Below are positions 12,101 to 55,125 of a stretch of DNA of 64,000 nucleotides, piece after piece (the first letter of the stretch is position 1; each line of letters starts with the position of its first letter). The stretch is taken from assembly GCF_003324165.1 (NCBI RefSeq), contig NW_025407828.1:714174-778173 (forward strand), read 5' to 3'. A program made the position numbers and the translations under genes. The notes below the pieces were generated by a model. It searched no databases, had not been told where the DNA came from, and saw only the letters and a list, made by a program, of their open reading frames with translations. Source of the stretch: Naegleria lovaniensis. Lineage: Eukaryota; Heterolobosea; Eutetramitea; Acrasida; Naegleriidae.

Positions 12101-14457
12101 CAACAAGCACTGGCAAAGAGCTTCAAGGTCAACTCAGCGAAAAGGATGAAAAAATCCTCGAATTACAAAATGAAATTTCCAAATTCAAATCTCTCAAAAA
12201 GAAATCTGAAGAAAAGTTGAAGACTTTGGAACAAGAAAATCAAACGTTACAAGATGAGAATAATGAGCTCAATAATCTCATTGAACAATGTTCCAAACGT
12301 ATCGAAGACAAAGACAAGCAAATGAAAAAACTTGAAGAATCACACAAGAAAGCTCTCGAACATGCAGAAAGCAAAGTTTCACAAGAAAGAGTTACTGTTG
12401 AGAGAGAATTAGAAAAAACAAAAATCGAATTAATTGCCAATCAATACTCACAGTTAGAACATTTCATTCTTGATCGAACGGTACTCAATAGCCAGACCAA
12501 CGACTTTTTAGTTCTCGACAATTTATCCAAGATTTATTTCAAGAACATTGTCGTGAAGGAATTTTTGAGTGAGATTTATCCAACGCCTGCTAAAATTCTT
12601 CTCAAATGTATTCTTCAATGGAATCCAGAAGAAGTTAAAACTGCCACTCTCGATTCCAAAATTATTCTCGGAAAGACATTTGGAATTAATTTATTGATTT
12701 CTTTGAATTACTTGTTGGAACGTTTCAAAACCACACGAAACAAACCCAATAACTTTTCAGCAGGAGCCAATGAAAGTGGAGAGTTGGAAAATTCGACATG
12801 TTTAATCTTGTTCTGGATTCATACACTCTACCGATTGATTCATGATTTGGAATTGAAGAGAAAATCTAACTTGTCACCAATTTTCGAGCAGGTGACACAA
12901 AAACTCATCAAAATAGAACCAGCATTGTTATTGGGAGATGATGTTCCTACTTGTAAATTCGTTGCCATGCCCTATTTAGTCAATTATAACGATTGTGAGA
13001 AAGTGACGAATGAATCACTTTTAGTGACAAGTATTGACTCATTAGTAGTGAAACTTTCAGAAATTTTGGTACAAATGTATGCCGAATTCTTTAGACATGT
13101 CATTATTCGATTGAGACCGTATCTCATTAAGGCAATTTTCAACAGCAAGTTGACAACATCCAAATCTACCGATGGTGGACTCGACACTCGATTGTTGCAA
13201 CAATTTTTGAACCGAATTTTCGATACGTTCAAACAACTTCGAATGGAGCCACGAGTGACTCATCACTTTTTCTCCAATCTTGCAAAATTAAGCGATGCCG
13301 TAATTTTCAATCATTTTCTATTGAAAGAAACCATTGGAGCAAATATTGCCTTGACTGTGAAAATGGGACTCGTCTTTCTCGAAAATTGGTTCCAAGCCAA
13401 AAACTTTGCAGATATTGAACTCATTGAAGGAGGCACTCAACAACAATTAATCTCGTTCCATTATTCACGAGAATTGAGTGATGTTTGTATTCTAGGTCAG
13501 AAACAAGTATTGAGCGATGAGTCGTTACGAAGTGCAGTGTGTCCACACATTACCAAACCTCAATTGGTTTATATTTTCAATCACTTGTCATTGGATTCTG
13601 AATTCAAATCCACAACCGCCGCAAATGATACTTCCGTTCCAGAACGAAGTTTATCTCCAACCAGTAGTGGAAATAGTAATAACTCCAGCAGTCGGAGTCC
13701 AACTCCTAACAGCAGTAACAGCGGCAATTTAGGTCTTCAACACTCATCCAGTGCTGATAATTTGGAAAATTCCACTCAACCTCAAACACCCAAGAGAAAT
13801 CCATTACAAATTTCACTTTCTTCTTCACAAGTTTTGACAAGTGGCAGTTCACCTCGAAGAACCTCTTTTAAAGGTTCGCTCGGTGGTGGTGTTCTTGCAT
13901 CTTTGGATTTAGAAAAACGTTTTGAGGGAATTATTTTCGTTCCAGAAATTGAACTTTTCAAATATGCTGAACGAGAAAGTTACGGAGTCGATCCTTCTTC
14001 ATTTTATGGAGTTTTGGGTCCACTTGCCAACATGATGCTTCGTTCTTCATCTTCTAAAAGCAATCTCATCGATAAGGATTCTCCTCGTTACAAACTCAAC
14101 AAGGAATTGGAAAATGTTCAACAACAAAAGGAACACAATTTCACACTCGTTGAAAACAAATTTTTATTTTACTTTAGTGGAGTTGCAGAGACACAGGCAT
14201 CGACCAATTTCATTCTCGAAGAATGGCTATTTTCAGTCATTTCAAATTATGGAGGAAAACGAGAAGCTGGTGTTGAGGGAATTGTGAAAATTCCACGAGA
14301 ACGAATTTTCAGTCAGTGTGTCCATGTTTTTAATCCACCGACATTGGTTGTGGAACAAGGAACTCCAACCAGTGCTCGAACAAAGGGAAATTCTTCATCG
14401 ACACAAAAGAAGAAGACATTTAATTTTGAAGATGAATTGGCTTTTTTATTTGATTAA
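9169..14457 (+). CDS. NT-C2 / coiled-coil / dilute (DIL)-domain protein (frame break near 11683)
   Basis: Exons are 9169-9291, 9588-9843, 9976-10186 and 10342-14457. Introns have GTATGT...CAG, GTGAGT...CAG and GTGAGT...CAG borders and consistent phases (0, 1, 2). The first exons form an NT-C2 (EEIG1/EHBP1 type) domain: a beta strand around KFVFNFSV, then QWKRGRKRKGET, FNRAFRF, LLITLEE and ALDLTEFVN, ending with VKILVKLVMNC. A long coiled coil follows (about residues 280-850). The C-terminal part, about residues 880-1200, resembles the dilute domain of class V myosins (LLERFKTTR, ILFWIHTLYRLIHDL, FNHFLLKETIGANIALTVKMGLVFLENW). Near 11683 the coiled coil changes frame with no GT donor available, and one added base gives 1568 residues and an intact frame. 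NT-C2 domains bind membranes and dilute domains bind cargo, so a membrane-tethering or trafficking scaffold is likely. Confidence 0.82.
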
Positions 14458-20417: not shown

Positions 20418-23138
20418 TTATTTGAAAATTTGCACACGATGATTGTGATAATCGACAACAACTATTTTGCCGTCACTGGTTAAGCCAACACCATTGGGTC
20501 CATCAAAAAGACCATCCTCACTGCCATAAGATCCAAATTGTTTAACCAAGATTCCCTCTCTAATATTCCAAATAGAAATACGATTGTTGTTATAGTCACA
20601 AATGGCAGCATAGTTAAGACCAATATTTCTCTTGAAGCAGCAAATTCCAGTTGGGTCACCGTCAGAATTTTGAGTTTCACTTTTCTTGACTGAAAATTTG
20701 CGAACAAACACACCATCTGTCGTAAAAACTTGTACACGTGAATTGTACCGATCTGTAATCACCAAATTGCCATCAATATCAATATCAACACTGTTTGGTC
20801 CGTAGAAATAGCCTCCCTCCATCTCTGGATTAGTTCCATTGGTACCAAATGATTTGATAAAGGACCCATACTTGTCAAAAATCTGAATACGATGGTTGTG
20901 ATGGTCACAAACAAAAATTTTACCAGGCACGTGCTGATCTTTTGGCTCCGAGACTATAATGCCTGTTGGATACGAAAACATGCCATAATCTGTGCCTTTG
21001 GATCCGAATTTTCCAACTTCCATTCCTGATCGATCAAATGCATAGACACAATGGTCGTCACTTGTAACAAGAATGGTTCCTTCCTTAGAATCAAACGTGA
21101 CTCCATAAGGTTTTGGCACAGAGAATTTTCTCAAGAATTTTCCGTCCTTTGAGAAAATTTGTACACGATTATTTTCATTGTCACAAACGATAATGTTATC
21201 GTTTGGATCAACAACCAGATCTGTTGGGCTTGAAAATTGGCCATCTTCAGAACCTTTGCCTCCAAATTTGCAAACAAACTTTCCTTCAATTTTACACTTC
21301 TCGATAGCAACTGGGGTATTCGGACTCTGAACCAATGAAGAGCTACTTCCCGTGGTAGGAGTAGAAGACGCCGAGGAAGGCAAAGAAGTGGACGAAGATA
21401 CATGATTGCTACTAATGTTGGGAGTAGAGGCATTGCTTGAAACCTTTGGCCCAATTACTCCGAATTTGGTGTTCAGTATTTCGCTAACTTCTTTCATGGA
21501 CTCAAATGAAACTCCAACGTTCAACGTATCAGAGAGATAGCTTCTATCAATTTTTCTTAGATTTTCCTGAAATTGTTGAATCACAACTTGTATCAATAAA
21601 CTCTTTCGTGTCTTGGATTGAATGAATTCAGAAATTTCCATCTTGCTCAGATTTTCTAAAAAGCCATCCGTTAAAAATTTGATTTGAGATAATTGTTGCA
21701 TTCCACTGGTCAGTATCTTTTCAGATATTTCTTCCTCACAACACACTCTCCACTTCTCTAGTACTTCTTTCCTCTTTTGTTCAATAATTTTTTCAAGTTT
21801 ATCAAAATTATCATTAATTTCTTTCACGCCTTCTTCATGAGTTTGAGCCATTAAATTTTTATCTCGAGCCAATTTTTCCATCTTTTCTGAAATATTTTGT
21901 TGCATTTGCACAATTTGATCTTTTAGTCCTTGTTTTTCTTTTTCAAATACTTCCTCTACCAAGTCATAGTCGTGACCTTTGTGTCTCGAAATGGCGCATA
22001 AGGCACAAACCAATTCATCACCACACGTGTGACACCATGTATTGAGGCGTTGATCTTTGTGGACCTCGCAAAAATCATTAATGGTAGGGACGTGTTGTTG
22101 GTGCGAAGAGTTGGCAGATTTAGGATGTGCATCTGAGGGTGTAGAATTTGCCGAAGGAGTGTGTGATGAAGACGAGCTAGAAAGTGAAGCAGATAATGTG
22201 GAAGTTATTGAGACAATTGAAGAAATTGCTGATCCGATAGAATTTGCCAATAGAGAGGTCTGAGAAGTTGCCGATGAGGACGAAGAAGTGGACACCTTTG
22301 CTGGTGTAAAAACAAAACTATTTCTCTTGGATTGAGGGGATCCTGGAGTGGCATGGACTGTATGTTGTGTTGGAGAAGAATCTTTTCTGACCTGTGTTTG
22401 TATTTGTATTGGTTTTGGAGATGTGGAGAGAGTTGATTGTTGTTGCTCCATTTGTGCCATAGCATTACCAATCATGACAGGAGAGGCCATACTGGTTCCT
22501 GGTGGAGTCATGGTGCTGCCACTGCTGTTGTTTGCTGTTGATTTCACCAAATTGATCGGTGTTAAATCCAAAATTCCATTCTCTTGATTCTTGAATGTAT
22601 GTATGGGCTTGTTGTTGCTTGGACTTCCCACTCCTGTTTGATGACTGACATCTTGGTTCATATCCAAAGAGTTCCTTGGTGGTACAGTTACTCCTACTGG
22701 AGATGATGTTGTTACTTTTGGAGTGCCCGTAGTTGTAGCAGCTCCATGATGAAGCACAGGTGGTGTTGTTGTCGTGGAAATTCGAGAAGGTGTTGATGGT
22801 GTTGAGCTCGCATTGTTATTGTTGCTCATTGAATGGTTGTTGTTTTCAACTGCTACTCTCTTCCTACCTTCATCAAGATATTCCTCACTTTCATCCACTT
22901 GTTGTACATTATCAATGACCACTTCTTCAAGAGGTGAATTTGGTTCCATCATGTTTTGTGTTGATCCGTGATGATGAGTCGTCGATGATGATGATGATGC
23001 TTGTTTAAAATCATCTTCTTCCTCAAAAGCAAATTGTCGTTGTTCAAATTCTTCCTCTATTAATCGTTCCTGTCCCACTATTTCTGATGAAGAATGGGAT
23101 GGTAAGTGTTGTTGGAAATCATCGGCTGGATCGGACAT
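20418..23138 (-). CDS. B-box / coiled-coil / NHL-repeat protein (TRIM-NHL-like without RING)
   Basis: This is a 906-residue single-exon gene. The first 350 residues are low-complexity, rich in Ser, Thr, Gln and Asn. A B-box zinc finger lies at about 353-397: CEVHKDQRLNTWCHTCG, then CALCAISRHKGHDYD. A coiled coil follows at about 397-500, then a Ser/Thr linker. Six NHL repeats (about 620-906) end the protein, with characteristic DNENNRVQIF, DHHNHRIQIF, DRYNSRVQVF, DYNNNRISIW and DYHNHRVQIF segments. The last repeat stops at its beta strand, as in a closed six-bladed propeller. This is the TRIM32/TRIM71 layout minus the RING finger, so ubiquitin-ligase activity is not expected. NHL propellers in this family bind RNA or protein. 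The function here is unknown. Confidence 0.87.
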   Translation of the reverse strand: MSDPADDFQQHLPSHSSSEIVGQERLIEEEFEQRQFAFEEEDDFKQASSSSSTTHHHGSTQNMMEPNSPLEEVVIDNVQQVDESEEYLDEGRKRVAVENNNHSMSNNNNASSTPSTPSRISTTTTPPVLHHGAATTTGTPKVTTSSPVGVTVPPRNSLDMNQDVSHQTGVGSPSNNKPIHTFKNQENGILDLTPINLVKSTANNSSGSTMTPPGTSMASPVMIGNAMAQMEQQQSTLSTSPKPIQIQTQVRKDSSPTQHTVHATPGSPQSKRNSFVFTPAKVSTSSSSSATSQTSLLANSIGSAISSIVSITSTLSASLSSSSSSHTPSANSTPSDAHPKSANSSHQQHVPTINDFCEVHKDQRLNTWCHTCGDELVCALCAISRHKGHDYDLVEEVFEKEKQGLKDQIVQMQQNISEKMEKLARDKNLMAQTHEEGVKEINDNFDKLEKIIEQKRKEVLEKWRVCCEEEISEKILTSGMQQLSQIKFLTDGFLENLSKMEISEFIQSKTRKSLLIQVVIQQFQENLRKIDRSYLSDTLNVGVSFESMKEVSEILNTKFGVIGPKVSSNASTPNISSNHVSSSTSLPSSASSTPTTGSSSSLVQSPNTPVAIEKCKIEGKFVCKFGGKGSEDGQFSSPTDLVVDPNDNIIVCDNENNRVQIFSKDGKFLRKFSVPKPYGVTFDSKEGTILVTSDDHCVYAFDRSGMEVGKFGSKGTDYGMFSYPTGIIVSEPKDQHVPGKIFVCDHHNHRIQIFDKYGSFIKSFGTNGTNPEMEGGYFYGPNSVDIDIDGNLVITDRYNSRVQVFTTDGVFVRKFSVKKSETQNSDGDPTGICCFKRNIGLNYAAICDYNNNRISIWNIREGILVKQFGSYGSEDGLFDGPNGVGLTSDGKIVVVDYHNHRVQIFK

Positions 23139-30843: not shown

Positions 30844-32577
30844 ATGCAAACAACACACGCCGTGTCCGATTTAAAACACAAGGCTCCATTGAAATTTCTA
30901 CTGCTGACCTTATTCCTCTATTTTCTATTATGGAGTGGTTTCCGTACAGACAAAGTTTTTGCTCTGACATGTCCCAATGGTTGTACCGATGCTACACGAG
31001 GTACATGTGATACCAATACTGGTGTTTGCCAGTGTAATGACTTGTGGACTGGATCCGATTGTTCTCTCTCCATGTGTGGTTGGTCCAAACAAGAAATCAA
31101 TGGAATTTCCTTTGGAACTGTGATGGGAGCTCCCACTCCTCTCATCAGCTCGACCATTGTAGATTCGAGCAGTATCCAATTTACCATGACTGTGCAAAAG
31201 CATCCCTTCATTACCTTTTCTCATGATTTGTTTGTTGGTAGCACCATGTTTAACGCATCCTCATGTGCCTTGTATGGAAATAACGAGAGGGTATCATTGA
31301 CGCTGGTAAATTCAACAACAATTTCGGGAGGTAGCAATGACTCGTGTTCTATCATGTACGATAGTCAAGTGTTCACTATTGATATGCTGATTAATAGCAA
31401 TTTGACGACGAAAGAATTGTTGGGAGATGTCATCAAACTGACCATTCCCTTGTCCATGGTCATTGGTAACCTCAATGGAACTGGCAATAACGGATTTTGT
31501 GAAGCCATCACGTACTCCACATCACAAGTGATCTATTTCCAAATTAATCCCATTGTGATTTACTCTTCGTCGTCGTTCAATTCGACCTATAATCCCTATG
31601 GGTATGAAGTCAAGTTGTATCCTCAAAATATTGGTACCTCAAACGGTTTAATGACCTTCGATGCCGTTTTGGAGAGTACCAACACAAGTTTAATTTCCTT
31701 CACGTATTTCAACAATTCGAATTCAGCTTACTCTCTCACCGTGACCAAAACCACACAGGCCTCCATTGTTGGTTCCAAGATTTACTATCTCATCACCACC
31801 CTGTCTTCTGTGGCCATTTCTGATTATCGTGGTGTGATCTATTTCAAAGTCGAGTTGAAATATCTCGATTCGAATCTCATTGTCACACAATTCATTCCAT
31901 TCAAGATTGACTATACGATTGTGGTTCCACCCTCAGACAAGAACATTACATTGCAAGTATCCATGACCACAACAGATAACATGTGGCGAACGAAACAGGT
32001 CTTTTCCACAGAAGAGAGCGTCTACTCGTTGGTGCAGTCACCTGGCTCTGGATTCAACGCCTATCAACTCACCGTTCAAGATGCTTACATGTGTTGTTTC
32101 AAAACATTTGTTTCAGCTCCAACCTATTCACCATCCAGCGGTCAATTAGGATGCACTGCGTATGACAATTCTACAATGGACTCGTGGAAACGTATCATTT
32201 CTAATTATGCAGGTACAGAGCCAACGACCATCACAATTCCTCTCTCTTCAAATCTGTACGGTTTTGCATTCAAGTTGAGCTCTGCCATGTTTGACTCTAA
32301 GGAACCAAGAGTTTGTTATTTACAGGCCAATACACGTCTCGTGGCTCGATCGAGAAGTGTTTCGTTGTTTGGACGGGCGGCTGTCGTTCCAAATTTACCT
32401 CCGTTCGCTATGACCTTGTTAACGGTAGAAGTTAAGACGTCGAATTTGCAAAATTATAATGAGACCTCTAGTGCTTCATCGATACTGGTGGGTTCCAAAC
32501 AATCGTGGTCTGTATGGACCTCAATCATGATGTTACTGCTTAGTGCTGCAGCCTTGTATTTTATCACGACGAATTAG
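30844..32577 (+). CDS. secreted or GPI-anchored surface glycoprotein with one EGF-like module
   Basis: This is a 577-residue single-exon gene. An N-terminal hydrophobic segment (FLLLTLFLYFLLWSGF, residues about 18-35) acts as signal peptide or anchor. A single EGF/tenascin-type module follows, with CPNGCTDATRGTCDTNTGVCQC and a GSDCS end. The remainder is beta-rich by eye with many N-x-S/T sites (over ten) and scattered cysteines. A hydrophobic C-terminus (SIMMLLLSAAALYFI) ends a few residues before the stop, which fits a GPI-anchor signal better than a cytoplasmic tail. The module type is the same as in the 27-module receptor at 47203-55125, but the rest is unrelated. The role may be adhesion or surface recognition; the family is not identified. 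Confidence 0.75.
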   Translation: MQTTHAVSDLKHKAPLKFLLLTLFLYFLLWSGFRTDKVFALTCPNGCTDATRGTCDTNTGVCQCNDLWTGSDCSLSMCGWSKQEINGISFGTVMGAPTPLISSTIVDSSSIQFTMTVQKHPFITFSHDLFVGSTMFNASSCALYGNNERVSLTLVNSTTISGGSNDSCSIMYDSQVFTIDMLINSNLTTKELLGDVIKLTIPLSMVIGNLNGTGNNGFCEAITYSTSQVIYFQINPIVIYSSSSFNSTYNPYGYEVKLYPQNIGTSNGLMTFDAVLESTNTSLISFTYFNNSNSAYSLTVTKTTQASIVGSKIYYLITTLSSVAISDYRGVIYFKVELKYLDSNLIVTQFIPFKIDYTIVVPPSDKNITLQVSMTTTDNMWRTKQVFSTEESVYSLVQSPGSGFNAYQLTVQDAYMCCFKTFVSAPTYSPSSGQLGCTAYDNSTMDSWKRIISNYAGTEPTTITIPLSSNLYGFAFKLSSAMFDSKEPRVCYLQANTRLVARSRSVSLFGRAAVVPNLPPFAMTLLTVEVKTSNLQNYNETSSASSILVGSKQSWSVWTSIMMLLLSAAALYFITTN

Positions 32578-37953: not shown

Positions 37954-40900
37954 ATGGCCTCACTCGAAGATTTGACGCTCACTTTCAAACCTATCCAAAT
38001 CTCGGAATTAAATAAGGAAGAAAAATATAAACCTTCATGTAACATTGGCTCTCCATCGAATGGCTCATCTGTGTCATCATTGAAATTTGAAAATTTCGAT
38101 TGGTCAAAAACACATTTACCTCCTCCGTTATCTGGCCACGCTTGTTGTGCAATTGCACTGGATGAGAAAAATCGAGAGGATAACATGGAAAATAATAACG
38201 AATTAATAATCATGGGAGGAATTAGCATTGGATTTAAAAGTGAGTTATTGATGAAATTATGATTATTTTAAAAAAACAATTTTCAACATTTGAAATTGTC
38301 ACTCTAGGAGTAAATACTGCATGGATACTCTCTCCGAGTAGGTAATACTAATCATTGTATGACATATGAACCCCCCATGATCTAACACGTGATGGCCAAT
38401 AGAAACACTTCAAATTAGAAAGTATGAATATCCTGATCCAATTCAAATTATGGAATTTTCACAAGTGGACGACAAGTCTAACAACAATTCTCCAAACATG
38501 AACAATAGCAAGAAACACTATCTCACTCTGTTTCATTCATATTTAACAAATTTAATTAACAATATTTCATCAGAGGACTTGTCACAACAACCATCGAATG
38601 ACAGCAATCACACTTCATCTCTTAAATTTTTTCCAAATTTAAAGAAAAAGAAATCTTCGTCATTATTTGCAAGACCAACAGAATTTCTAGATGTTGACAG
38701 TGGTAGTTTAACAACGATGAGCTTTGAAAATTCGCGCACTGAATCATTATCCCCACTTGATATTCATTACAAAATTTACCAAAGCAAATTATTGGAGTAT
38801 TTGAGGAAAATTGCTTCCAATACATTTGACGAAATGCAAAATTTGAGCAAGATGAAAATTTCATCCACCTCATTCACATCTCTCTTGTCACAACAATATG
38901 TTTCAAGATCTGTCGTTTATAATTTTCCAATTCCACGAGAAAGACACTGCATGTGTGTTGTTCCAAAAAAACAAGCATCAGATTCTCGACTACTAGTCAT
39001 CATGGGAGGAATTGCTGATAAGAAGATTCGTCTTAACGATGTCTGGTTTCTAAATATCGATACCATGATGTGGCATGAAGGTAGATTAAATGGTTACAGT
39101 GTCGAAGTTCCTCCTGAAAATGCTACCGAATATTCATGCATCAAAAAGGCTCACACATCAACTTGGATTTCCCCATTCGACACCACAAACTCACAGCATG
39201 TTTCAACAAAAGATGGATGTACCATTCATTTAGGGATTAAAATTCCTACTCCAAGATATTATCATTCTTTGGTTGCCGTGAATGATTCTACATTAATACT
39301 CTTTGGAGGATACGATGGCGCGTTTCAATGTGATTTATGGCTGTTGAAATTATTGGATCGAAAGAATGTGATTTTTGAATGGAAGAAAATTGAGCTTTCA
39401 AAACAGGAAGCTGTCATTCACAAATTTCCATGGCCTTCTCCTCGATACAATCATTGGTGTGGTATGTTAAAAGACAAAATGCTACTTGTTGGAGGCGTTC
39501 TCGATAAGAATGTTCAAACGAACGATGTGTGGTATTTTGACATTGATTCTTATCGTTGGAGATGTTTATTGGTTGACAGAGATCATGCTGCAAGTTCTGA
39601 GGACTATCCAGAACGGAGGAGTGATCACAGATGTGCCATTCTGGGAAAATATTTATTGCTCACTGGAGGAGTTCACAAAAAGACCTATTTACATGATACC
39701 TATGTGTTGGATTTAGAAAAGTTTACATGGAGAAAATATTCAAATGCAACGGTCAATGATGATACTACCAAATTTATGCCAGGAAGAATTAGTTTTTCTA
39801 TTCAGGTAGGATCACGACTTTTGAAAATATCATTCACTTGACTCTTGACGTTATTACATAACTTTATAATTTGTTTGGTTCTGTTATGAATTTTTGATAT
39901 TGCAGGCCCTAAATCCTACATCAGCAATCGTTTTTGGAGGAATTGTCGATAAGGATAAGTTAGTGGCAAGAGCGAACGATATTTGGATGATTGAAACCAA
40001 TCTCCAATTGAAATCAGATCCCAATCTCTCAAAGATTGGATTCATCAATGAAAAGAGAATTGGTTCTAATTATTTGATTGAAAGAATATTAGGAGCTGGC
40101 GGCCAAGGACAAGTTTTTCTCGTGAAGGACGAATCTGTGACATCCGAAAACAAGTATTATGCGTTGAAACGAATGACCATCAATTTCTCAGATGACGTCG
40201 GAAGAAACAAAGCCGTGGCAAGTGACATGGTCTTTAATGAAATTTTCATTGTTCAACAATTGAAGCATGAAAATGTGTTGCCCACCTATTCCTTCTTTTT
40301 GGAAAAGAAAATGGAAGAAAACTCAAAATCTAATGACTTCACACTGAACCTTAATATTTTAATGCCCTATTGTGAAGCTGGTGATTTTAGTGCCTTTTTT
40401 GCCCGAAGAAGTTATCAATGGCAAAAAATTGGCATGTTTTGGGACGAATGTGAAGTGATTTCATGGTTACTTCAAATTGCAAGGGGCCTTGAGTATATTC
40501 ACTCGAGAAATATTATTCACAGAGACTTGAAACCAAGTAATATTTTTGTAACATTTGACAAGAACAGTAGTAACCTTAAGGGTGGCAATGGAGATGATAC
40601 CAGCTCGAGTGAAACTCCTCAAAGACAGACTATTGTTTTCAAAATTTCAGATTTTGGACTAGCTAAGAACGTCTCCAATTCTCTAGCAAAAACTACATGT
40701 GGAACAATGCTCTACCTAGCCCCTGAAATTTATACAGAAGAGGTCTATTCAGAAAAAGTGGATATTTGGTCCTTTGGGTGTATTATTGCATTTTGCTTAT
40801 TTCAATCAAAATTGAGAATTGATTTGAAATTGCCATCACAAAAGAAACAATTAATTGAGCTATTCCATCCAAAGACAAGCAAATCGACCAGTGTTGACAA

Positions 40901-41750
40901 TTCTTACATGGACAAATTGGTAGGAAAAGATGAATGGTTGCAATTAACATTGGATTGTGTCGAACAAGAGCCTGACAAGCGACCATCTGCTTCTGAAATT
41001 GTCAAGCGCTTGGAGTTGTTGTTGGAAAGAGTGAAAAAAGCCAATGAAGAACGGTTACAGAAAATTAGGGAGCAAGCACAAGAAACGTCATGCAATGTTT
41101 CAACAACAGATTCGTCTGTGGAGGTTTCTTCAAGTAAGACGATAAGTGATTCACCATCATTGACGAGCTCTACTGCTGAAGAATTGGTAACATTTCCTTT
41201 AACAACATCAACAGCACAAAATCAACAACACAATGAACAAGAAAATAATCCACAGTTCATACAGCAGCATGACAAAGACCAAGCAAGTGTGAATGAATTG
41301 CAAGAAGATCATGATGAACCACACAACATTTCATCGGAGTCTGATACTAAATTGTTTCAAGTTCTGGAACCACTGATTTTAAATAGCGACTTGTCACAGT
41401 CTTTCCAATCTAATTCTTCAACTGGAGCTATTCAAAACCTTTTGCTTGCCAACAATGATCCGACCAAAGACCGCGATGAAGAAGAGTTATGGATTGAATT
41501 ACAAGCATGGATCTTTCAATTTGAAGAGAAACAACTCTTAGATGAAAAAGAAGTCGATTTGTTATGCATTGCAATCGATCACCAGAATTCAACATTGAAA
41601 CGATTTTACAAGGCTCTTAAAAAGATTTCGAACAGTTCCAACTGTGATGATGGCTTTGGAGAGGAATCTCAAATCATGAACCAAGAATTGAATAATTCAA
41701 TGTTGCTCAAGCAATTGAAACGATTTTTAAAGTTGAATGTCCAAGAGTGA
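37954..41750 (+). CDS. kelch-propeller / protein kinase fusion, four exons
   Basis: Exons are 37954-38239, 38308-38341, 38419-39805 and 39906-41750 (1183 residues). Introns are GTGAGT...TAG (68 nt), GTAATA...TAG (77 nt) and GTAGGA...CAG (100 nt). Exon 2 is only 34 nt. Residues about 50-640 hold kelch units: SGHACCAIAL, LLVIMGGIADKKIRLNDVWFL, PRYYHSLVAVNDSTLILFGG, PRYNHWCGMLKDKMLLVGG, RRSDHRCAILGKYLLLTGG and AIVFGGIVD, with intervening low-complexity inserts. The kinase domain (about 625-950) is complete: glycine loop GAGGQGQVFLV, lysine in YYALKRM, HRDLKPSN, DFG in ISDFGLA, TTCGTMLYLAPE, and DIWSFGCI. A coiled, Gln/Glu-rich C-terminal region of about 230 residues follows. The kinase looks like an active Ser/Thr kinase; the subfamily is not assigned. 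The propeller probably recruits substrate. Confidence 0.88.
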
Positions 41751-42743: not shown

Positions 42744-45071
42744 ATGAACAACACTCTTGTACCATCAACAACACCATCATTCCAATCCAATTTCAGTAAT
42801 AGTTATCATGGCCGTAACAACAATCATCACCTTTTGCCACTATCTCAGCCTCAGGAACAACAACCATTCGTTATGAATGAAGGCGGCTCTTCTTCATGCG
42901 CCAACCAACCTTGTGTGATGGATCCGAACTCTCGTGATGAAACAATCAACACTCCTAACAAGTCTGTATTGGCAATGCAAAACAACCACAACCAACAACA
43001 GCAACTTGGCTTACCAACATTTGATGAGCATTTACGTTTACTGAACCAAGTCCAACAAATCATGATGATGAATCAACAAAAACAACAAATGCAAAAGCTC
43101 GTGAATGGTTCCAGTACTGCTCTTGCTAATCCAGGAGGCATGATGCTGGGTAATTATCATCACCAATTAAGCGATCCATTATTAATGAATAATAACACTC
43201 TCGGAGCTACTACCACACACGATTCTACTAACATGAATGCAATATTGGCTTCTCAATACTCTCTGTTAAATCAACCATTGATTCTCCAGAAGCAACAACT
43301 CACAACTCCAACTTCATTCACTAACCAACATGTCATCCCTTCCAAGCCACAACTGCAACAACAACAGATCATTACTTATCATAGTGTGGAGGGATGCATT
43401 GTGGATGAAAACAAGATTTTTGGCAATATAAATGTATTGAATGCAGATGAAACCAAGCAAACCAAGATTGTAGTCATGCCAACCAGTGTCTTTCAGAGAT
43501 TCTTACAACCAGTTCTGGAACATATTAAACAGGCACTCTTTGCTCCATTGCAACAATTGCCTCTCATTCCACATGCATTTCAACAACAATCAACCATGTC
43601 ACCACAATTGTCATTTATTGATCCATTTCAACAAGTACAACCTCCATCCGAATTGAATTTGAAATTGGTAGTGAATTCTGAAGACTTGGAACCATTCATG
43701 CAACAGCAAGAATTCCAACAACATCATGATCATGCATCAAATAATGATATTTTAACGAGCACTGGTGTTTCTCTCAATCAAGATGAGGCTTTAAACCAGT
43801 TGCTCTTCGAGGGTTCTTCCACTCAGCATCGATTCGATGTTAACGAGCAATCATCATTGTTAACTTGCAATAATGAGGTCATACAAGCCAAGCCATCCTC
43901 TGATCAAGCTGCTGTGAATGATGACGCGAACGATGAAGGTTCAATTATTTTCGAAGACAATGAAAACCAAGACATGGCTTCGACTTGTACATTGCAAGCA
44001 GCAGAGCTTGGTCATGCAGTGGATGAGTGCTCCAAAGACAACACACAACAAGGTAATAATTACAAAAAAACAAACAATAAGAAGGGAATTAAGAAGAAGA
44101 GAAAGTACATTAAGAGTGGACTGTTCCGTAAGGACCCCAAATCTGGTCAATTTTTATTTTCGTCCAGAGATCGAGCAAGATTAGCTACATTAATAACTCC
44201 AAATGAAAGTACCACCGGATCATGTAGTGTCAATATTGCAGATGAAGCGACAACCCATGAAGAAAATGCTAACAGCCAAAATAGCCAAACCGAAAGCATT
44301 GCATTGTTTGGTAGTGGTAATAGCACAGATCAACACAGCAATTCTTCGTCACCTCATGTCAGCTCTTTGAGCCCAGAATACCATGGCATGGATGAGCATG
44401 ATCGGTTGGCATTTGAACTCTATTGTCGTGAAACTGTTCCAATTCACAAAGATGCAGCTTCAAACATGATCTTATTGAGGGAGCAATGGAGACTGCTTCC
44501 GCAAGAAGAGCGAGAACGTTACAAGAGATCCGTAGTTGTTTTGGGTACTATTGACAATTCCAATGCTTGTGATGGCGTTGCAATGACAAATGTTGATGGC
44601 ATGGAGGAATTATCAGAAAAAGATGGCAACAATACTGTCGTTGGAAAGTATTCTCGTGTGAAACGTCCACTGAATGCCTATAACATCTTTTGCAAAATTC
44701 ACTTTCCAGAATTTCAGCAAAGGTACCCAAATTATACAATCAACCAAATTTCCAAACATATTGGAGAGAAGTGGAAATCTCTCTCTAACGAAGAAAGACA
44801 ACCTTATATTGAGCAGTCAAAAAAGAATTCGCAACCTGTTGTGAAGAAACCTTTGTCTGCATACAACATTTTCTGCAAGAGTCAGTTTGAAATTTTCAAA
44901 AAGAAATATCCAGATCTCAGTATTCACTTGCTGTCTCGAAAGGTTGCTGATTCATGGAAGAGCTTGAGCGAGGATGAAAAGCGTGTCTATTACGAGGGTG
45001 CTCAGAAACAACGTCAAGAAAATCTTCTTCAAGTTCACAATATGATTCCAACCTGTATCAAACAGCAATAG
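42744..45071 (+). CDS. HMG-box protein with two clear and one degenerate box
   Basis: This is a 775-residue single-exon gene with an ATG start. The N-terminal 450 residues are Gln/Asn-rich with Met and His (activation-domain-like). A basic stretch (KKTNNKKGIKKKRKYIKSG) around residue 450 could be a nuclear localisation signal. The C-terminus has HMG boxes at about 638-692 (KRPLNAYNIFCKIHFPEF, HIGEKWKSLSNEERQPYIE) and about 697-755 (KKPLSAYNIFCKSQFEIF, KVADSWKSLSEDEKRVYYE). A more diverged box-like segment lies at about 548-600 (DRLAFELYCRETV, LREQWRLLPQEERERYK). The two clear boxes are adjacent and alike, suggesting internal duplication. HMG boxes bend DNA; a transcription or chromatin factor is likely. 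Confidence 0.85.
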   Translation: MNNTLVPSTTPSFQSNFSNSYHGRNNNHHLLPLSQPQEQQPFVMNEGGSSSCANQPCVMDPNSRDETINTPNKSVLAMQNNHNQQQQLGLPTFDEHLRLLNQVQQIMMMNQQKQQMQKLVNGSSTALANPGGMMLGNYHHQLSDPLLMNNNTLGATTTHDSTNMNAILASQYSLLNQPLILQKQQLTTPTSFTNQHVIPSKPQLQQQQIITYHSVEGCIVDENKIFGNINVLNADETKQTKIVVMPTSVFQRFLQPVLEHIKQALFAPLQQLPLIPHAFQQQSTMSPQLSFIDPFQQVQPPSELNLKLVVNSEDLEPFMQQQEFQQHHDHASNNDILTSTGVSLNQDEALNQLLFEGSSTQHRFDVNEQSSLLTCNNEVIQAKPSSDQAAVNDDANDEGSIIFEDNENQDMASTCTLQAAELGHAVDECSKDNTQQGNNYKKTNNKKGIKKKRKYIKSGLFRKDPKSGQFLFSSRDRARLATLITPNESTTGSCSVNIADEATTHEENANSQNSQTESIALFGSGNSTDQHSNSSSPHVSSLSPEYHGMDEHDRLAFELYCRETVPIHKDAASNMILLREQWRLLPQEERERYKRSVVVLGTIDNSNACDGVAMTNVDGMEELSEKDGNNTVVGKYSRVKRPLNAYNIFCKIHFPEFQQRYPNYTINQISKHIGEKWKSLSNEERQPYIEQSKKNSQPVVKKPLSAYNIFCKSQFEIFKKKYPDLSIHLLSRKVADSWKSLSEDEKRVYYEGAQKQRQENLLQVHNMIPTCIKQQ

Positions 45072-47202: not shown

Positions 47203-50200
47203 ATGAACTCTGCTTTCTCACTAATCGATTGTGAACACCAGACCTTGGCATGTCATCCAAACGATTGTATCAGTAGTGGAAAGCGGCCGGCTTCCAACAA
47301 CAACACGAAACGACGCTCGATACTCCGAGGTCTAAATCTAACTGGAAAAGGACAAGTAAAATTTGTCTATTTTCAAATGATCCTGGCCATCATTATCATC
47401 ATTCTACCTTTAATATTTAACAAACAATTTCAACATGTGCTCTATGGCAACAACAACAATACATGTAATGATGAGAGCACGAAGTCATCGGCCAATGTAT
47501 CATCCTCTACTTTTCGTAATGACGGATTACTAATGTTTGTCAATGGAGAGACTCTTAACACGACCACTGTCTATAATTGTTTCGGACTCCTTTCCAATGA
47601 TTCCAATGTTTGCAATGGACGAGGATCGTGTATCGGAGAAAACAATTGTTCATGTCTTGTTGGATATTTTGGAGAGGATTGTCAAAATTTTACCTGTGGT
47701 GGCATCTCATCAAATTTAACCGGAGTGGTTTGTTCTGGACATGGAATTTGTGTGGATTTCAACACTTGTCAATGTGATCTCAATTGGCATGGATCGAATT
47801 GCAATGTGACGGAGTGTTTTTCAATATTACAAAATGATACTTTACGAGTGTGTAATGGACATGGAATTTGTGTTCAGACCGATCTTTGTCAATGTACTAC
47901 ATCGTTAAATTATACTGGAGTAGAATGTGAAATTCCAAAATGTTTTGGAATTGCTGCAAATGTGAGTAGCGTCTGCTCTTCACATGGTACTTGTTCATCG
48001 CCCAATAATTGTACCTGTGATGCAGGCTATGTTGGATCGCAATGTCAATATGCGCAATGTTTTGGAGGAAATTCATCAGTTCCTAGCTCGGTGTGTACTG
48101 GTGGAAAGGGAATTTGTGTGGCACCTGACACTTGTCAATGTACGAGTGGTTATGTTGGAGATCAATGCCAGGTAAGGCATTCTTGTGAAATCAATGGATT
48201 CGATAACTTGTTGAACAATGACACTCATTTGATATTCTATTAATTGATGCTTAATGTTATAGTATCCCGTATGTTATGGATTTCCTTCCAACGATACTGC
48301 AAACTCATGTTCTGGCTCTGTAAGAGGAAGTTGCATTTCCAACAATACTTGTTCGTGCAATTCTGGCTATACTGGCAATGAATGTCAATATAATATTTGT
48401 TATGGCATTTCTTCTGCTAGTTCCAGTGTGTGTTGGAATCAACATGGTGATTGCATTGCACCCAACAATTGTAATTGCACAGTCCCAAATTTTACTGGAT
48501 ATGATTGCTCTTTTGAATTATGTTCAGCTGGATTTCAATGTAATCGACGACATGGTTATTGTTTGGTAAGTAGAATTTACAGAATTCTCAATTCATTGAA
48601 TTAATTATTTTTTTCAATATTCAACAATTATTTTTTAAAATTCAATTCCTAGTTACCCTTATATTGTCAATGTAACACGGATTGGACGGGCCTTGATTGC
48701 AGCACTCCAATTTGTTTTGGATTTCCAGCCAATGACTCCACTAATGTTTGTTCAGGTCGAGGTACCTGCACCTACGCCAATCAGTGCGCTTGTCCCACTG
48801 GATGGAGAGGAAATTCCAATTGTAGCATGTACAGTTGTGATGGAAAGAATTACTGCAGTGGACATGGAGTTTGTGTTGGTCCCAATAATTGCAGTTGTAA
48901 GTAATCAAAATATTGAAAGTTATGTTCTTTTTATAATGTCACGTTCAAAAAGGCGATGATGGATGGAAAGGAAACACTCAATGTAGTGAAGTGAGTTGTG
49001 AATTGCTTGGAAATTGTAATTCCAAAGGATCATGTACTGGTGCGAATGTTTGTACCTGTAACACTGGATGGAAAGGAAATGCCAATTGTACCGCATTCAG
49101 TTGTGATGGAAGAAATTATTGTAGTGGTCATGGAGAGTGTGTTGGAGCTAATACTTGTAATTGTAAGTGTGGAGCGTATATTCCAATTGTTGTGTTGTAG
49201 TACTAACTTCAATCATAAACTCTTGTCAAATTAACCAAATTAGGTGATGCTGGATATAAGGGAAATGACTATTGCAATGTATTTAGTTGTGAGCTAGCTG
49301 AAAATTGCAACTCTCACGGATCATGTAGTGGTCCTAACGTATGCAGTTGCAGCACTGGATGGAAAGGAAACTCAAATTGCAGCACATTTACATGTGACGG
49401 ACGAAATTATTGCAATGGACATGGTCTATGTATTGGAGCTAACACCTGTCAATGTGATTCAGGTTGGCAAGGAAATCTTAATTGCTCTGCCTTCACATGT
49501 GATGCATTGGGAAATTGTGGAGGAGCAACAAAGGGAACCTGTGTCTCAAATAATACATGTTCCTGTAAAACTGGATATAAGGGATCCAATGATTGCTCCG
49601 TGTTCACATGTGACGGAAGAAATAACTGTACAGGTGATCATGGTACTTGTATTGGCCCAAATTTATGTTTGTGTAATGCTGGATGGACCTCATCGAGTGA
49701 TTGCTCTGTTTTTTCATGCTCTATTTATGGAAATTGCTCAAATCATGGAGTGTGTATTGCTAACAATACATGTTCCTGTCAATTTGGATGGGAAGGCCTC
49801 GACTGCAACACATTCAATTGCTTGGGTCGAAACGAATGCTCAGGACATGGTCTCTGTGTTGCCAATAACACATGTTCCTGTCTCTCAGGTTGGAAAGGAA
49901 ATGCTAATTGTTCCGTGGTTTCATGTGATGGTCTCAGTCATTGCGGTGGAGAGTTACAAGGACTTTGCATTTCGAATAATACTTGTTCATGCTTATCTGG
50001 CTGGAAAGGTTCAGCAGATTGTACTCTATTTTCATGTGATGGTGTCAATCAATGTAGTGGAAAAGGTCTTTGCATTGGAAATAACACTTGTCAATGTGTG
50101 AGTGGATGGGGAGGAGCAGATTGCAGTATTTTCAATTGTAATGGTGTGAATGAATGTGGTGGCCCTATGCATGGTCAATGTGTGGCCAATAACACATGTC

Positions 50201-53200
50201 AATGTCAATCCGGTTGGAAAGGTGCGTTAGATTGTGGATCTTATTCATGCGATGGAGTAAATGAGTGTTCCCTCCATGGATTATGCATTGGAAATAACAC
50301 TTGCTTGTGTGCTGCTGGTTATCAGGGCAATAAGAATTGTTCTGCATTTTCATGTGAATTGGTCGCTTCATGCAGTTCTCATGGAAATTGTACTGGACCC
50401 AATGCTTGTACCTGTTTGGATGGTTATGGAGGACCTAAATGTGATATTTTCAATTGTTATGGAAAATTGGCAATTGATCCAGATGTTTGCAGTAGAAATG
50501 GTTCCTGTGTAGGTCCTCATCATTGTGAATGTTTGTCAGGTTTTTCAAATACTGGAATTTGTAATCAACCAATATGTTTTAACAGAACTGCCAATGATAC
50601 CTCTGTTTGTAATGGATATGGCGTTTGCATTGCTCCTGATGTTTGCTATTGTACTTCACCCTATTATTATGGACCTAATTGCACTCACTATGATTGTTAT
50701 GGTTTATTCTATCAAAACCCATTAGTTTGTTCTGGAAGAGGTTTATGCTCTTCTCATGACAATTGTGCATGTGAAATGGGTTACATTGGATCGAATTGTC
50801 AATTTATTCAATGTTACGAATTTGACACTTCGTCAACAAGTGTTTGTTCAGGAAGAGGAATTTGCCAGTCTCCAAATAATTGTTTGTGTACAGATCCCGA
50901 TTTTTCTGGCCTGAATTGTAACATTACGTTGAGAGAATTACCATTGGAAATTAAGAGTAATCGATATAGCGTTGGCCTCAATGCTATGGATGTGTTCAAC
51001 AACATTTCAGTGCTCAACATTGAAACCATGTTCACGCAATCAATATATCCATATTTGGAAAGTTCAGTCATTTATCAATGGAATTGCTCAAATTGTGGAG
51101 AGAATGCAACACAGATCGAATCAAATATTTTCTTAAATGGTAATTCATCAGCTACACTTTCCCTCAATATCAACAATTTACCATTTGGAACATTTGTTTT
51201 CACATTACAAGCCTATGTAGAATTTTCTGAGAACAATGTAGTATATCGAAGAAGTGCTCCAGTACTCTCTGTTGTGGTGAGATTATTCATGGTTCCTGAG
51301 GTTTACAATATTGCGATTACTGGAATTCCATCTGCAATTGTAATTTCAGACAAGATTGCTGATTTTACGTCCTCTACTCCTTTGGCCTCAATGAATGAGA
51401 GCATTATTTACAAATTCCTTGGATGTCATACAGTGGAGGTCAATCAATCTGTATCGGAAAATGTCACGTTAACAAGTTTTGAGACTGTTTGTGAACCCAA
51501 GGTTGTGTCATATAGAAGTATTTTGACGTTTAGAAATTCGACAGCTTTCATTGAACTTGCTACCTATGAGTTGAATGTGACAGCGACAGCTAATAGCAAA
51601 AAGACCAGTATTATTTTTACACCAATGCCTTCATTCACATACGACTTGCGAACCAACCTTCAAGTTTGGAATCAATCTTTAAGTATTGACTCTTCAGAAA
51701 TTCAATATTTGGAGTTTGTTGTTATTTTTGAAAATCCTCTGACTGGAAAGAATTTCACAACAACTTCCATGATACCAATAGTTCTTCCTGCTTCACCTCC
51801 CACACCAGAAATTGGAAACTTTACTACACCTCTCATCGATGTTTATCCAAAGAATGGTGTTGCCTTATTGGATAGATTTATCATGTCCATTGAAGAATGG
51901 TCAGCTCCCATTACATTACAACCTCTTCAATATGCTGTTGGCTTTTATGATTCATTGCTGAAAGCACCTGTGAGATTGTCACAATTCTCAACGAACACCA
52001 GCATTGCAACCTATTTACCGTTTATTGCTGCTTCAGCCTCCTCAAGACTCACAACTCGTCACATTGCTGCTCAGGAGAGAACTGTTCAGTTGGTGGTGTT
52101 TGTAATGGATAAATTTGGAAATGTTGATTGGAGACTCACTGAACAAGTATCTGTGGCACCTTATAATGGAACATCGACAGAGTTATTACAAAACTTTGTG
52201 ACATTTTCCTCTCAAGATTTGTTAATTCTTTCCTATGACAAGTCATTGCAATCAATCAATAGTACAAACACAGAGTTACAACTTAAATTATTGGAAAAGA
52301 TTGAATTTGACATGAAAAATCCTTCAATTGCATTGAATTCGTTGATTTCATTAACTCAAGAGTCTGACTCATTGAGCACTGAAGTAGTGAAAGCTGTCAA
52401 TGCAAAGTTGAATTCCTTTATGAATAACGTATCTGCCATTTATCAAGAAGAAAAAGCTCAGTATTCCTATGTCAAGACTAAAATTTTGACTGATTCTGAT
52501 ACTGTTTCCACTGTGTCATTGCTCTCCAATTTATTGAACTCTGGATTGAATATGGATGCAACTGATGACAATGTTGTAAACTTGGCTTCAATTACCACCA
52601 TGGCTGAATTGCCATCAACACTTGGTGCTAACGCGTCATTGCCCGTGTTACTTTTCAATTCTGGATCTATTAACATGACACTCTCTGTTTTCACCGTTAA
52701 CACAAATGTTCCACCCAACCAAAATCAAACGCTTTCGAATGGAAGAAATACCATGCAAATGGATTTGCATTCAATTTCTAATTACGTTTCATCGGGTGAC
52801 ACGATCCAGTCGTTGAGTATATCATTTATTTCAATGTCAAGAAATACTCGATCAGATTCAATGACTAGAAGGTATCCAGTTCTGGCACCTGTGAGTCATT
52901 TCACAGTTAGAAAAGATGATGTAGAAGTGGCATTGAACGATATGAATGAACCCATCTTGTTGAGTTTTGGAATGGATTCAAGAATTTTAACGGCAATTGT
53001 CAATGCAACAAATATTACCTTATCATGCAATTATTGGAATGTCACTCAACAAACATGGCTCCACAATGGATGTTTCTTGTATAGTTTTGACAATTATACT
53101 CTCACTTGCGCATGTAATCACACCACTCTATTTGCGACTTTTATGCAATACAACATTTCACAATTGAAGGGGCAAACGGACTTTATCAAACTTACACTTG

Positions 53201-55125
53201 CAGATTATTATATTGCATCGATTGTGTTTGGTATCATTTATGGTGCTTTGGCGTTGGCAGTATTAACATTGTTAATTATATTCAGAGAAAAGCAACCTAT
53301 TAAGAGTAGAATTTGTACACCATATCTTGGAATTGTTGCACTCTTAGTGGAATGTGTGCTCATTTTAATTATTCAACAAGCCATTTTAGTGAGTGAAATC
53401 AAATCCAATAGTCTTAAGAGCTCATCCTATGATAAGGACATCACTAATGTTGTGAATTGGTTTGGTGGAATTGCAACGATTGTAGTGAATACTCTTAATT
53501 TAACCGCCATTCTTTCATTCTTATTGCAAGTGACTCGATTCCAACTCATGAAAAATTTATACAATTTAATGACACGTGTAAAACCCAGTGCGGATGTGAG
53601 TACTCAGGATCGATTGAAAAGTTATGAACAAAAAATTAGAATTCTCAAGGCCTTGACTTCTCGAACTGCCAATAACATCATTCTGGTAGCATTTGCCTTC
53701 TTGAATGTGCTATATTGGTTGATATTCTTCATTTTGAAATTTATGGGAGCTATTTCAGCTTTTGCCTACACCTCCGTGGTATCCATTACCTATATGGTCA
53801 TCATTTTAACTTTTGGAGTGTTGATTACTTTGGTGTTCATTGTAGATATTGTGCTGACTCGAAAATTCGATAACGAACGTATTGATGTATCTATTTCTCA
53901 GAGTTTGACAAATCAAGTTCCTAAAGAATTGGAATCTGTCCATGAGGGAAAAACTCCAATCAATCATCAAAATTCTTCATTTGGTGCATTTAAGGACAAT
54001 CAAACCATTCAAATTTCCACCCTCATTCGACAAGCTTGGAGATGGTTCCTTCGAAGGGATAGACCACTCTATTTCCGATTGGAAATGGTATTCTTTGTGG
54101 CGTTCTTTATTTTCCTCATCATTTCACAAGCTACTGGAATTTCTACTTTGGAAAGTCGTTTCGCAAGTGAAGAACAATTTAAGATTGGACTCTATGCAGA
54201 CACTGCTCGATTTGCTTTCGAAGTTGTCTATATTGTTTTCTATATCTTAGCATTTGGTGGTTTTGCAGCCATTGTGTCTGTTGTGAATTATGTGAAACAC
54301 TTAATTCGACAAATTCAAAGAAACAAACAAAGACGAATGTTTACACGAACAGCTTCCAAATCTGCCTTGTCCATGCAAAATAATGAACCCTTGGATGAGA
54401 GCGAGGACTATAATGAAGAATTTTATCAATTGATTCATGACAATGAAGGATTCATAGTGTTTGAAGAATATTGCAAGAAAGAATGGAGTATTGAAAATTT
54501 ATATATTTATCTCGATCTAATGTCATTTGAAAGAAAACTCACCGACATGATGGAAGACTCTGAAAAATTCCTCCAACAGCTCTATGTGTTTTGTGTTTCC
54601 ATTTTTGAAGTCTATGTCAAGGAAGGAGCTACTTTGGAAGTGAATATCCCTTCACGAACGAGAAAGAGTTTCTTTATTTTATTCAAGATGGTAATGGAAG
54701 CAGCTGTCAATAGACCATTTTGTGACAACAAGTACAAGGAAGTCATTCATCAAGAATTGAATAAGAAAGCACTACATGCTATTCAAACGACCAGTTCTAA
54801 ATCTCTCATTAAGCAAGATTCTGTGAATGTCATTGCATTGGATGAAAATAAGCAACCTGCATCGATTCAGCATTTAGACTCTATTAGTACCATCACTTCT
54901 TCCTCATTGGCAAACACGACCACTGTGGCAACCTCTCAATATTTAGTGATGTGGAAAGATTATGAACTCACTGTGAGAGAATGTGTGGAATCATTGCATC
55001 ATCAAGTAGTAATGAATTTGAATGACACATTTTCGAGATTTGTTTTCACCGATGAATATAAGGCATTTAGTTATGCCCTGGAGGTGAAATCAAGAATTTT
55101 AAAGGATGCTCGATTTTCCTTGTAA
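47203..55125 (+). CDS. EGF-repeat / GPS / seven-TM / RGS receptor, five exons
   Basis: Exons are 47203-48171, 48263-48565, 48653-48896, 48953-49162 and 49244-55125 (2535 residues). All introns are GT-AG, 56-91 nt, with matching phases. A cytoplasmic N-terminus of about 50 residues leads to a signal anchor (FQMILAIIIIILPLIF). About 27 EGF/tenascin-like modules follow (residues about 125-1140), with the pattern C-x-G-x-G-x-C...C-x-C...G-x-x-G. A long N-glycosylated region (about 1140-1835) resembles REJ-type modules. The GPS motif (about 1838-1877) reads CNYWNVTQQTWLHNGC, then CACNHTTLFA. Seven hydrophobic segments follow (about 1897-2268). The cytoplasmic tail contains an RGS domain (about 2300-2535; FEEYCKKEWSIENLYIYLDL, LNDTFSRFVFTDEYKAF) with an insertion of about 80 residues before its last helices. 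It is a predicted adhesion receptor that both senses ligands and speeds GTP hydrolysis on G-alpha. Confidence 0.9.

Follow-up and report, generated by a model that had tools for sequence, protein, structure and literature searches.

Background

Naegleria fowleri has 28 proteins in which seven transmembrane segments (7TM) are followed by a C-terminal RGS domain (Bosch, Jeck and Siderovski 2022, PMC9283941). As described in the main text of that paper, a number of them carry GPS motifs reminiscent of adhesion G-protein-coupled receptors (GPCRs), and lectin domains and EGF-like repeats are found in several; beyond these three kinds of module, the terms 'GAIN domain' and 'REJ' do not occur there. 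The same text reports that the RGS domains of 7TM RGS2, 3 and 4 each act as a GTPase-activating protein (GAP) for one G-alpha or more, that RGS1 was not assayable, and that G-alpha 5 and 7 self-activate. Here we analyse a gene of Naegleria lovaniensis, called the receptor below, that lies at positions 47203-55125 of a 64,000-nucleotide stretch of DNA (assembly GCF_003324165.1, contig NW_025407828.1, positions 714,174 to 778,173 of the forward strand). We call the whole stretch the window, and all coordinates refer to it.

The receptor has a 7TM region and then a C-terminal RGS domain, a GPS before the 7TM region, and EGF-like repeats. It is a further member of the kind described in N. fowleri in 2022, Nf 7TM RGS2-4 for example, where the comparison is with the proteins as described in that paper (PMC9283941). 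A sequence-only reading of the window had implied that the union of a GPS-bearing 7TM region and an RGS domain in one protein was new, and this implied novelty is not supported. No other paper on the GPS/7TM/RGS combination was among the matches listed, the literature coverage being thin for subscription journals.

We report the predicted gene structure, the domains, and the conservation of their motifs in a family that numbers 13 genes or more. Our preferred reading, to which we assign a probability of roughly 0.5, is that the protein belongs to the Naegleria 7TM-RGS kind and is a receptor-GAP, with an RGS brake that would be gated by a tethered peptide.

Gene structure of the receptor

The gene is predicted to have five exons on the forward strand, giving 2535 codons and a stop with no internal stop codon. 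The open frame from 47203 reaches a GT donor at 48172, and four short predicted introns (91, 87, 56 and 81 nucleotides), all GT-AG, restore the frame. Their GC content is 0.18-0.32 versus 0.38 for the exons. They sit within the EGF-like array, and the register of the modules is kept across them. Exon 5 lies in a 1968-codon open frame that opens at 49219, and its splice phase fits. The exons are as follows.

47203..48171, forward strand: exon 1, with start codon, N-terminal stretch, hydrophobic anchor and first EGF-like modules; open frame up to the GT donor at 48172
48263..48565, forward strand: exon 2, EGF-like modules
48653..48896, forward strand: exon 3, EGF-like modules
48953..49162, forward strand: exon 4, EGF-like modules
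49244..55125, forward strand: exon 5, part of the twelfth and the last 15 EGF-like modules, REJ-like region, GAIN-like part and GPS, 7TM, RGS, stop

From residue 577 to the stop everything is encoded by a single uninterrupted exon, that is, modules 13 to 27, the GPS, the 7TM region and the RGS domain. It is therefore very unlikely that the EGF/GPS, 7TM and RGS parts are separate genes or transcripts, which the sequence-only reading had named as the case against itself; its single chain of 2535 residues with EGF, GPS, 7TM and RGS agrees in coordinates and length with the five-exon model. An annotation artefact, in which separate genes were read as one, might be suspected of a gene model predicted from DNA alone. 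We give it hardly any weight and rejected gene fusion as an explanation, because the GPS, 7TM and RGS share an exon here, stand in one open frame in several paralogues, and come in the same order in all 13 genes of the family. The NCBIfam scan matched no family.

GPS, transmembrane region and RGS domain

The features of this part of the protein are as follows.

52195..53022, forward strand: presumed GAIN part ahead of the GPS, approximately residues 1560-1835; placed by position and by a family profile with the GPS that extends into the GAIN regions of adhesion GPCRs
53023..53136, forward strand: GPS motif, residues 1836-1873, C-YW-W-GC-C-C-HTT; over the Pfam cut-off, columns invariant in 8 aligned members
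53119..53127, forward strand: predicted cleavage triad H1868-T1869/T1870 with TLFATFM as candidate tethered agonist; from the motif and the H-X-S/T rule
53212..54285, forward strand: 7TM region, residues about 1899-2256; from hydropathy, charge pattern and its 13 places in the genome
54406..55092, forward strand: RGS domain, residues about 2297-2525; from Pfam RGS, family alignment and PDB profile matches, with a longer loop between the second and third conserved blocks

The GPS (PF01825) scored 24.4 bits against a cut-off of 22.5 when a short piece was scanned, and 22.6 bits in a piece of 976 residues. A profile of 8 members, running from before the GPS to the first transmembrane segment, was compared with the PDB; all 18 distinct sequences matched at E <= 0.1 were adhesion GPCRs, with a best E of 2.3e-8. 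Among the four alignments shown, the signal was strongest at the GPS, and one of them (ADGRG1) takes in the preceding strand. On these motif and profile matches we regard the GPS as established. As in class B2 receptors, it keeps H-X-T, which is then followed by T-x-F. By the H-X-S/T rule for GPS cleavage, as given in the abstract of PMC13062082, the bond between T1869 and T1870 is where cleavage would be expected. The motif that the sequence-only reading had described, with autocleavage possible between the two threonines, is thus borne out, the cleavage itself being predicted.

Hydropathy gave seven hydrophobic segments between the GPS and the RGS domain, in line with the seven membrane segments expected. 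With segment limits set by hand, the inner-side loops have 28.6, 23.3 and 15.9 basic residues per 100, versus 12.5, 0 and 11.1 in the outer ones, and the long N-side part carries 65 N-glycosylation sequons. Because of these inside-positive loops and N-side sequons, a predicted topology with the EGF/GPS part outside and the RGS domain inside fits.

The expected C-terminal RGS domain (PF00615) was likewise found, with 28.7 bits against a cut-off of 23.9 in a short piece; the score was 24.4 bits in the 976-residue piece and 23.2 bits, 0.7 under the cut-off, in a piece of 1959 residues. Its profile matches PDB structures of RGS10, RGS16 and RGS4. Its conserved blocks are kept: S-x-E-N, E-V-N-I-P-S and D-T-F-S-R-F are invariant in the receptor and the 4 paralogues whose sequence reaches the end of the domain, the positions in the receptor being E2326-N2327, N2376 and D2503 to R2507. 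We take these blocks to hold the G-alpha contact residues of RGS4. The match of DTFSRF/DSYSRF to the RGS domains of the PDB is weak (2 bits). The second and third blocks are 127 residues apart in the receptor versus 82, 59, 74 and 41 in the four paralogues, and this long loop may be why the Pfam match spans only model positions 2-75 of 117.

Possible partners of the RGS domain are present. G-alpha genes gave 101 exon-level matches in the genome, a count that, as for RGS, is possibly inflated because pairs of contigs (C38/C70, C32/C60, C17/C85 and C51/C95 are examples) give matches of identical score, as if duplicated or allelic stretches had been kept apart. When one of the G-alpha was compared with the PDB, the best match was a chain named Galpha7, with 316 bits versus 141 for the next. 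Since a crystal structure of that name is reported in the main text of PMC9283941, we infer that the chain comes from N. fowleri.

A family of paralogues

We searched the genome (30.7 Mb, 97 contigs) and read all 20 GPS matches individually (L001-L008, L043-L053 and the receptor). Thirteen have a multi-pass region and then RGS or RGS-like sequence, six show just one membrane segment over the part read, and one has a different multi-pass layout. All 13 GPS-7TM-RGS genes have H-T-T at the GPS and T-x-F after it, a conservation that points to selection for the ability to cleave. None of the 13 shows a contig twin of the above sort in the GPS and 7TM searches.

An RGS domain over the Pfam cut-off lies just downstream on the same strand in 9 of the 13. 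In the other four (L001, L004, L007 and L053) RGS is the best Pfam match, at 22.3, 16.2, 21.5 and 19.8 bits against the cut-off of 23.9 (E 1.8e-4, 0.014, 3.2e-4 and 0.0011); in at least L004 and L053 the sequence scanned breaks off before the domain is complete. As RGS-like tails were found in the frames of all four, we rejected the idea that they are GPS-7TM proteins without RGS.

Three 7TM queries (the receptor, L003 and L050) find the same 13 places, together with one marginal extra match (C16:275000, E 0.005). As scoring was confined to the top 22, 19 and 19 candidates, the family may be larger than 13. In a tree of the 13 7TM regions the receptor is nearest to L047 and L045 by path, with the fork itself left unresolved. 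At least 5 of the 13 (the receptor, L007, L045, L047 and L053) are preceded on their own strand by EGF_2 matches, in a search that scored 150 of 728 candidates. A scan of viral contigs with the family alignment gave 12 pattern matches and no relatives.

These searches bear on the explanation that the receptor is a surface adhesion protein, whose RGS domain would be a membrane-tethered, unregulated GAP and whose GPS cleavage would serve shedding or maturation only. A stalk of 27 EGF-like modules suits adhesion, and the GPS also occurs on the six proteins for which one membrane segment was seen over the part read, where agonism on a 7TM region is impossible. However, the 7TM region is conserved across 13 paralogues and, among the candidates scored, has no clear occurrence without GPS and RGS, a pattern that points to the three parts working together. 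We therefore consider an unregulated GAP unlikely.

The six single-segment proteins have H-L-T or H-L-S triads. In two of them, L048 and L052 (contigs C2 and C16), the GPS and the one membrane segment come first and a protein kinase domain comes after them (E 2.4e-42 for L048 and 8.3e-26 for L052), in L048 in another frame and hence across a presumed intron; by their layout these would be receptor-kinase-like GPS proteins, with H-L-T/S triads. The gene with the different layout is L008 (contig C11). Its multi-pass part is unlike the 7TM-RGS family, and no RGS domain was noticed by eye in the stretch read.

Proposed mechanism

According to the receptor-GAP reading, the EGF-like stalk and the REJ/GAIN-like region would stand outside the cell. 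The GPS would cleave itself after T1869 during maturation, with the two fragments staying together. When the stalk binds a ligand or is pulled, the new N-terminus TLFATFM... would be exposed and act on the 7TM bundle, as in adhesion GPCRs. The change would then pass through the seventh helix to the cytosolic RGS domain and alter the rate at which G-alpha hydrolyses GTP. With self-activating G-alpha, as in N. fowleri, control of the brake alone could carry the signal, as has been proposed for AtRGS1, and nucleotide-exchange activity would not be required. Here the anatomy is observed, and the dynamic steps are modelled on adhesion GPCRs, plants and N. fowleri.

Several points weigh against this reading. 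Cleavage, ligand and 7TM-RGS coupling are only predicted in the receptor, and for N. fowleri the main text of PMC9283941 leaves the receptor function of the 7TM-RGS proteins and the control of their GAP activity to be determined. The Pfam match of the GPS on its own is modest, and the GPS was not listed when the whole 1959-residue piece was scanned against Pfam. The part before the GPS, compared alone with the PDB, gave two unrelated proteins (best E 0.21) and no adhesion GPCR; from the profile that includes the GPS a GAIN domain there is likely, its full fold being putative. As RGS is under the Pfam cut-off in 4 of the 13 genes, some copies of the family may be degenerate in this domain.

The 7TM region adds to these points. 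No Pfam 7TM family was matched in 8 members at E <= 1, and its profile gave two matches in the PDB at E <= 10 (a keratin and a ryanodine receptor), neither of them a GPCR. A genome search for 7tm_2 at E <= 1 likewise came back empty, but control genomes were equally silent, so that this search is unvalidated. Single-sequence AlphaFold predictions gave the expected layouts but were of low confidence: seven long helices for the 7TM region, with a predicted local distance difference test (pLDDT) of 54 and a predicted template-modelling score (pTM) of 0.32, and helices then strands for the GAIN/GPS piece, with pLDDT 35 and pTM 0.24. Since no similarity to adhesion GPCRs was detected in the 7TM region, tethered agonism cannot simply be transferred to it. 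A distant relation in fold to GPCRs is possible.

The same results bear on the picture favoured by the sequence-only reading, a true adhesion-type GPCR in which the tethered peptide would make the 7TM region an exchange factor and the fused RGS domain would be a built-in off switch. The H-T-T and the tethered-agonist-like sequence in 13 of 13 genes, basic second and third intracellular loops and the presence of G-alpha genes speak for it. However, an adhesion or secretin 7TM signal is lacking in the Pfam and PDB profile searches (the 7tm_2 search being read as above), and none of the 8 aligned members has a cysteine in the columns of the first extracellular loop and top of the third transmembrane segment or in those of the second extracellular loop. 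The usual GPCR disulfide sits at the cysteines of the third segment top and second extracellular loop. Moreover, at least two G-alpha of N. fowleri self-activate by the account in PMC9283941, and for those an exchange factor is not needed. We regard this picture as doubtful and, with a 7TM region without adhesion-class match, rejected the outright label of adhesion GPCR. The one-chain architecture and the H-X-T GPS of the sequence-only reading stand, and its adhesion-type 7TM was not detected in these searches; of the Pfam families it named, GPS and RGS scored over the cut-off and REJ and 7tm_2 had no match.

Ectodomain

The remaining features of the receptor lie in its N-terminal half.

47362..47427, forward strand: N-terminal hydrophobic segment, residues 54-75; hydropathy peak of 2.78 at residues 54-72, preceded by basic residues
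47578..50919, forward strand: array of 27 EGF-like modules with introns inside it, residues 126-1134; from the six-cysteine pattern with shuffle control and Pfam EGF_2 and EGF_TEN
51832..52140, forward strand: REJ-like region, residues 1439-1541, limits approximate; from homology to a stretch of L007, without direct Pfam match

The N-terminal hydrophobic segment did not figure in the sequence-only reading. With 8 basic residues among the first 53, ahead of the peak, it resembles a signal anchor that stays uncleaved, or else a long signal peptide.

The estimate of about 27 EGF-like modules agrees with our count of 27, each of 30-38 residues. When residues 120-1165 were shuffled (1000 trials), the six-cysteine pattern was matched 0.5 times on average and never more than 4 times. 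In the last exon Pfam EGF_2 reached E 2.9e-30, and teneurin-type EGF families also scored high.

The REJ-like region fared less well. Pfam REJ was not found in the receptor by any scan covering the region, and we rejected a direct assignment. What supports the region is homology to the paralogue L007: it lies within a stretch 30% identical to that protein (E 2e-30), and in 3 of the 13 genes, that of L007 among them, a comparison of coordinates places a Pfam REJ match immediately ahead of the GAIN-like part.

Other genes in the window

On the reverse strand, an open frame of 906 residues at 20421-23138 combines NHL repeats (E 3.1e-29) and a B-box zinc finger (E 7.9e-7) in an arrangement that resembles animal TRIM-NHL proteins. 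The forward strand holds a DIL-domain protein at 11965-14457 (E 1.5e-7), a protein kinase at 39987-41750 (E 2.1e-46) and, at 42744-45071, a protein of 775 residues with a C-terminal pair of HMG boxes. The genome search also gave a weak EGF_2 match at 30970-31062 (forward strand, E 7.7e-4) in the open frame 30844-32577, which matched no Pfam family at E <= 0.001 when scanned whole.

Comparison with known systems

Adhesion GPCRs (class B2; for example ADGRL3, ADGRF1 and ADGRG6) resemble the receptor in having a multi-module ectodomain and an H-X-T GPS with T-x-F directly before the 7TM region, but their 7TM region is not detectably related, and we know of no adhesion GPCR with an RGS tail. Plant AtRGS1 is similar by layout, with 7TM and then RGS, and is proposed to control GAP activity on self-activating G-alpha; to our knowledge it has no EGF/GPS ectodomain. 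Polycystin-1-like and other REJ/GPS proteins share with the family an REJ-like region followed by the GPS (Pfam REJ in 3 of 13 genes), but polycystin-1-like proteins have an 11-transmembrane region where the receptor has its 7TM-RGS part.

A 2025 study of choanoflagellate GPCRs in eLife (PMC12716839), in whose main text the word Naegleria is absent, finds GAIN-7TM linkage only in holozoans, the complex ectodomain appearing restricted to them. The 13 GPS-7TM-RGS genes, of which 5 or more also have upstream EGF-like modules, form a direct exception to the claim as made in that text, as far as GPS and 7TM are concerned. Because no relation of the 7TM region to adhesion GPCRs was found, a separate origin of the GPS-7TM linkage would be the simpler reading. 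Tentatively, and as a possibility that we hold to be a minor one, Naegleria may have added a self-cleaving module of the GPS/GAIN type to a 7TM-RGS core in an event separate from that in animals, giving a mechanosensing receptor-GAP whose peptide is freed when the stalk is pulled. If true, this would be a second origin of GAIN-7TM linkage, outside holozoans and with the opposite biochemical output, a brake and not an exchange factor. The Naegleria 7TM-RGS kind has been in print since 2022, but its ectodomains and 7TM regions are described in the main text of PMC9283941 by domain labels only. The family offers a test case of whether tethered agonism, known from adhesion GPCRs, can regulate a GAP.

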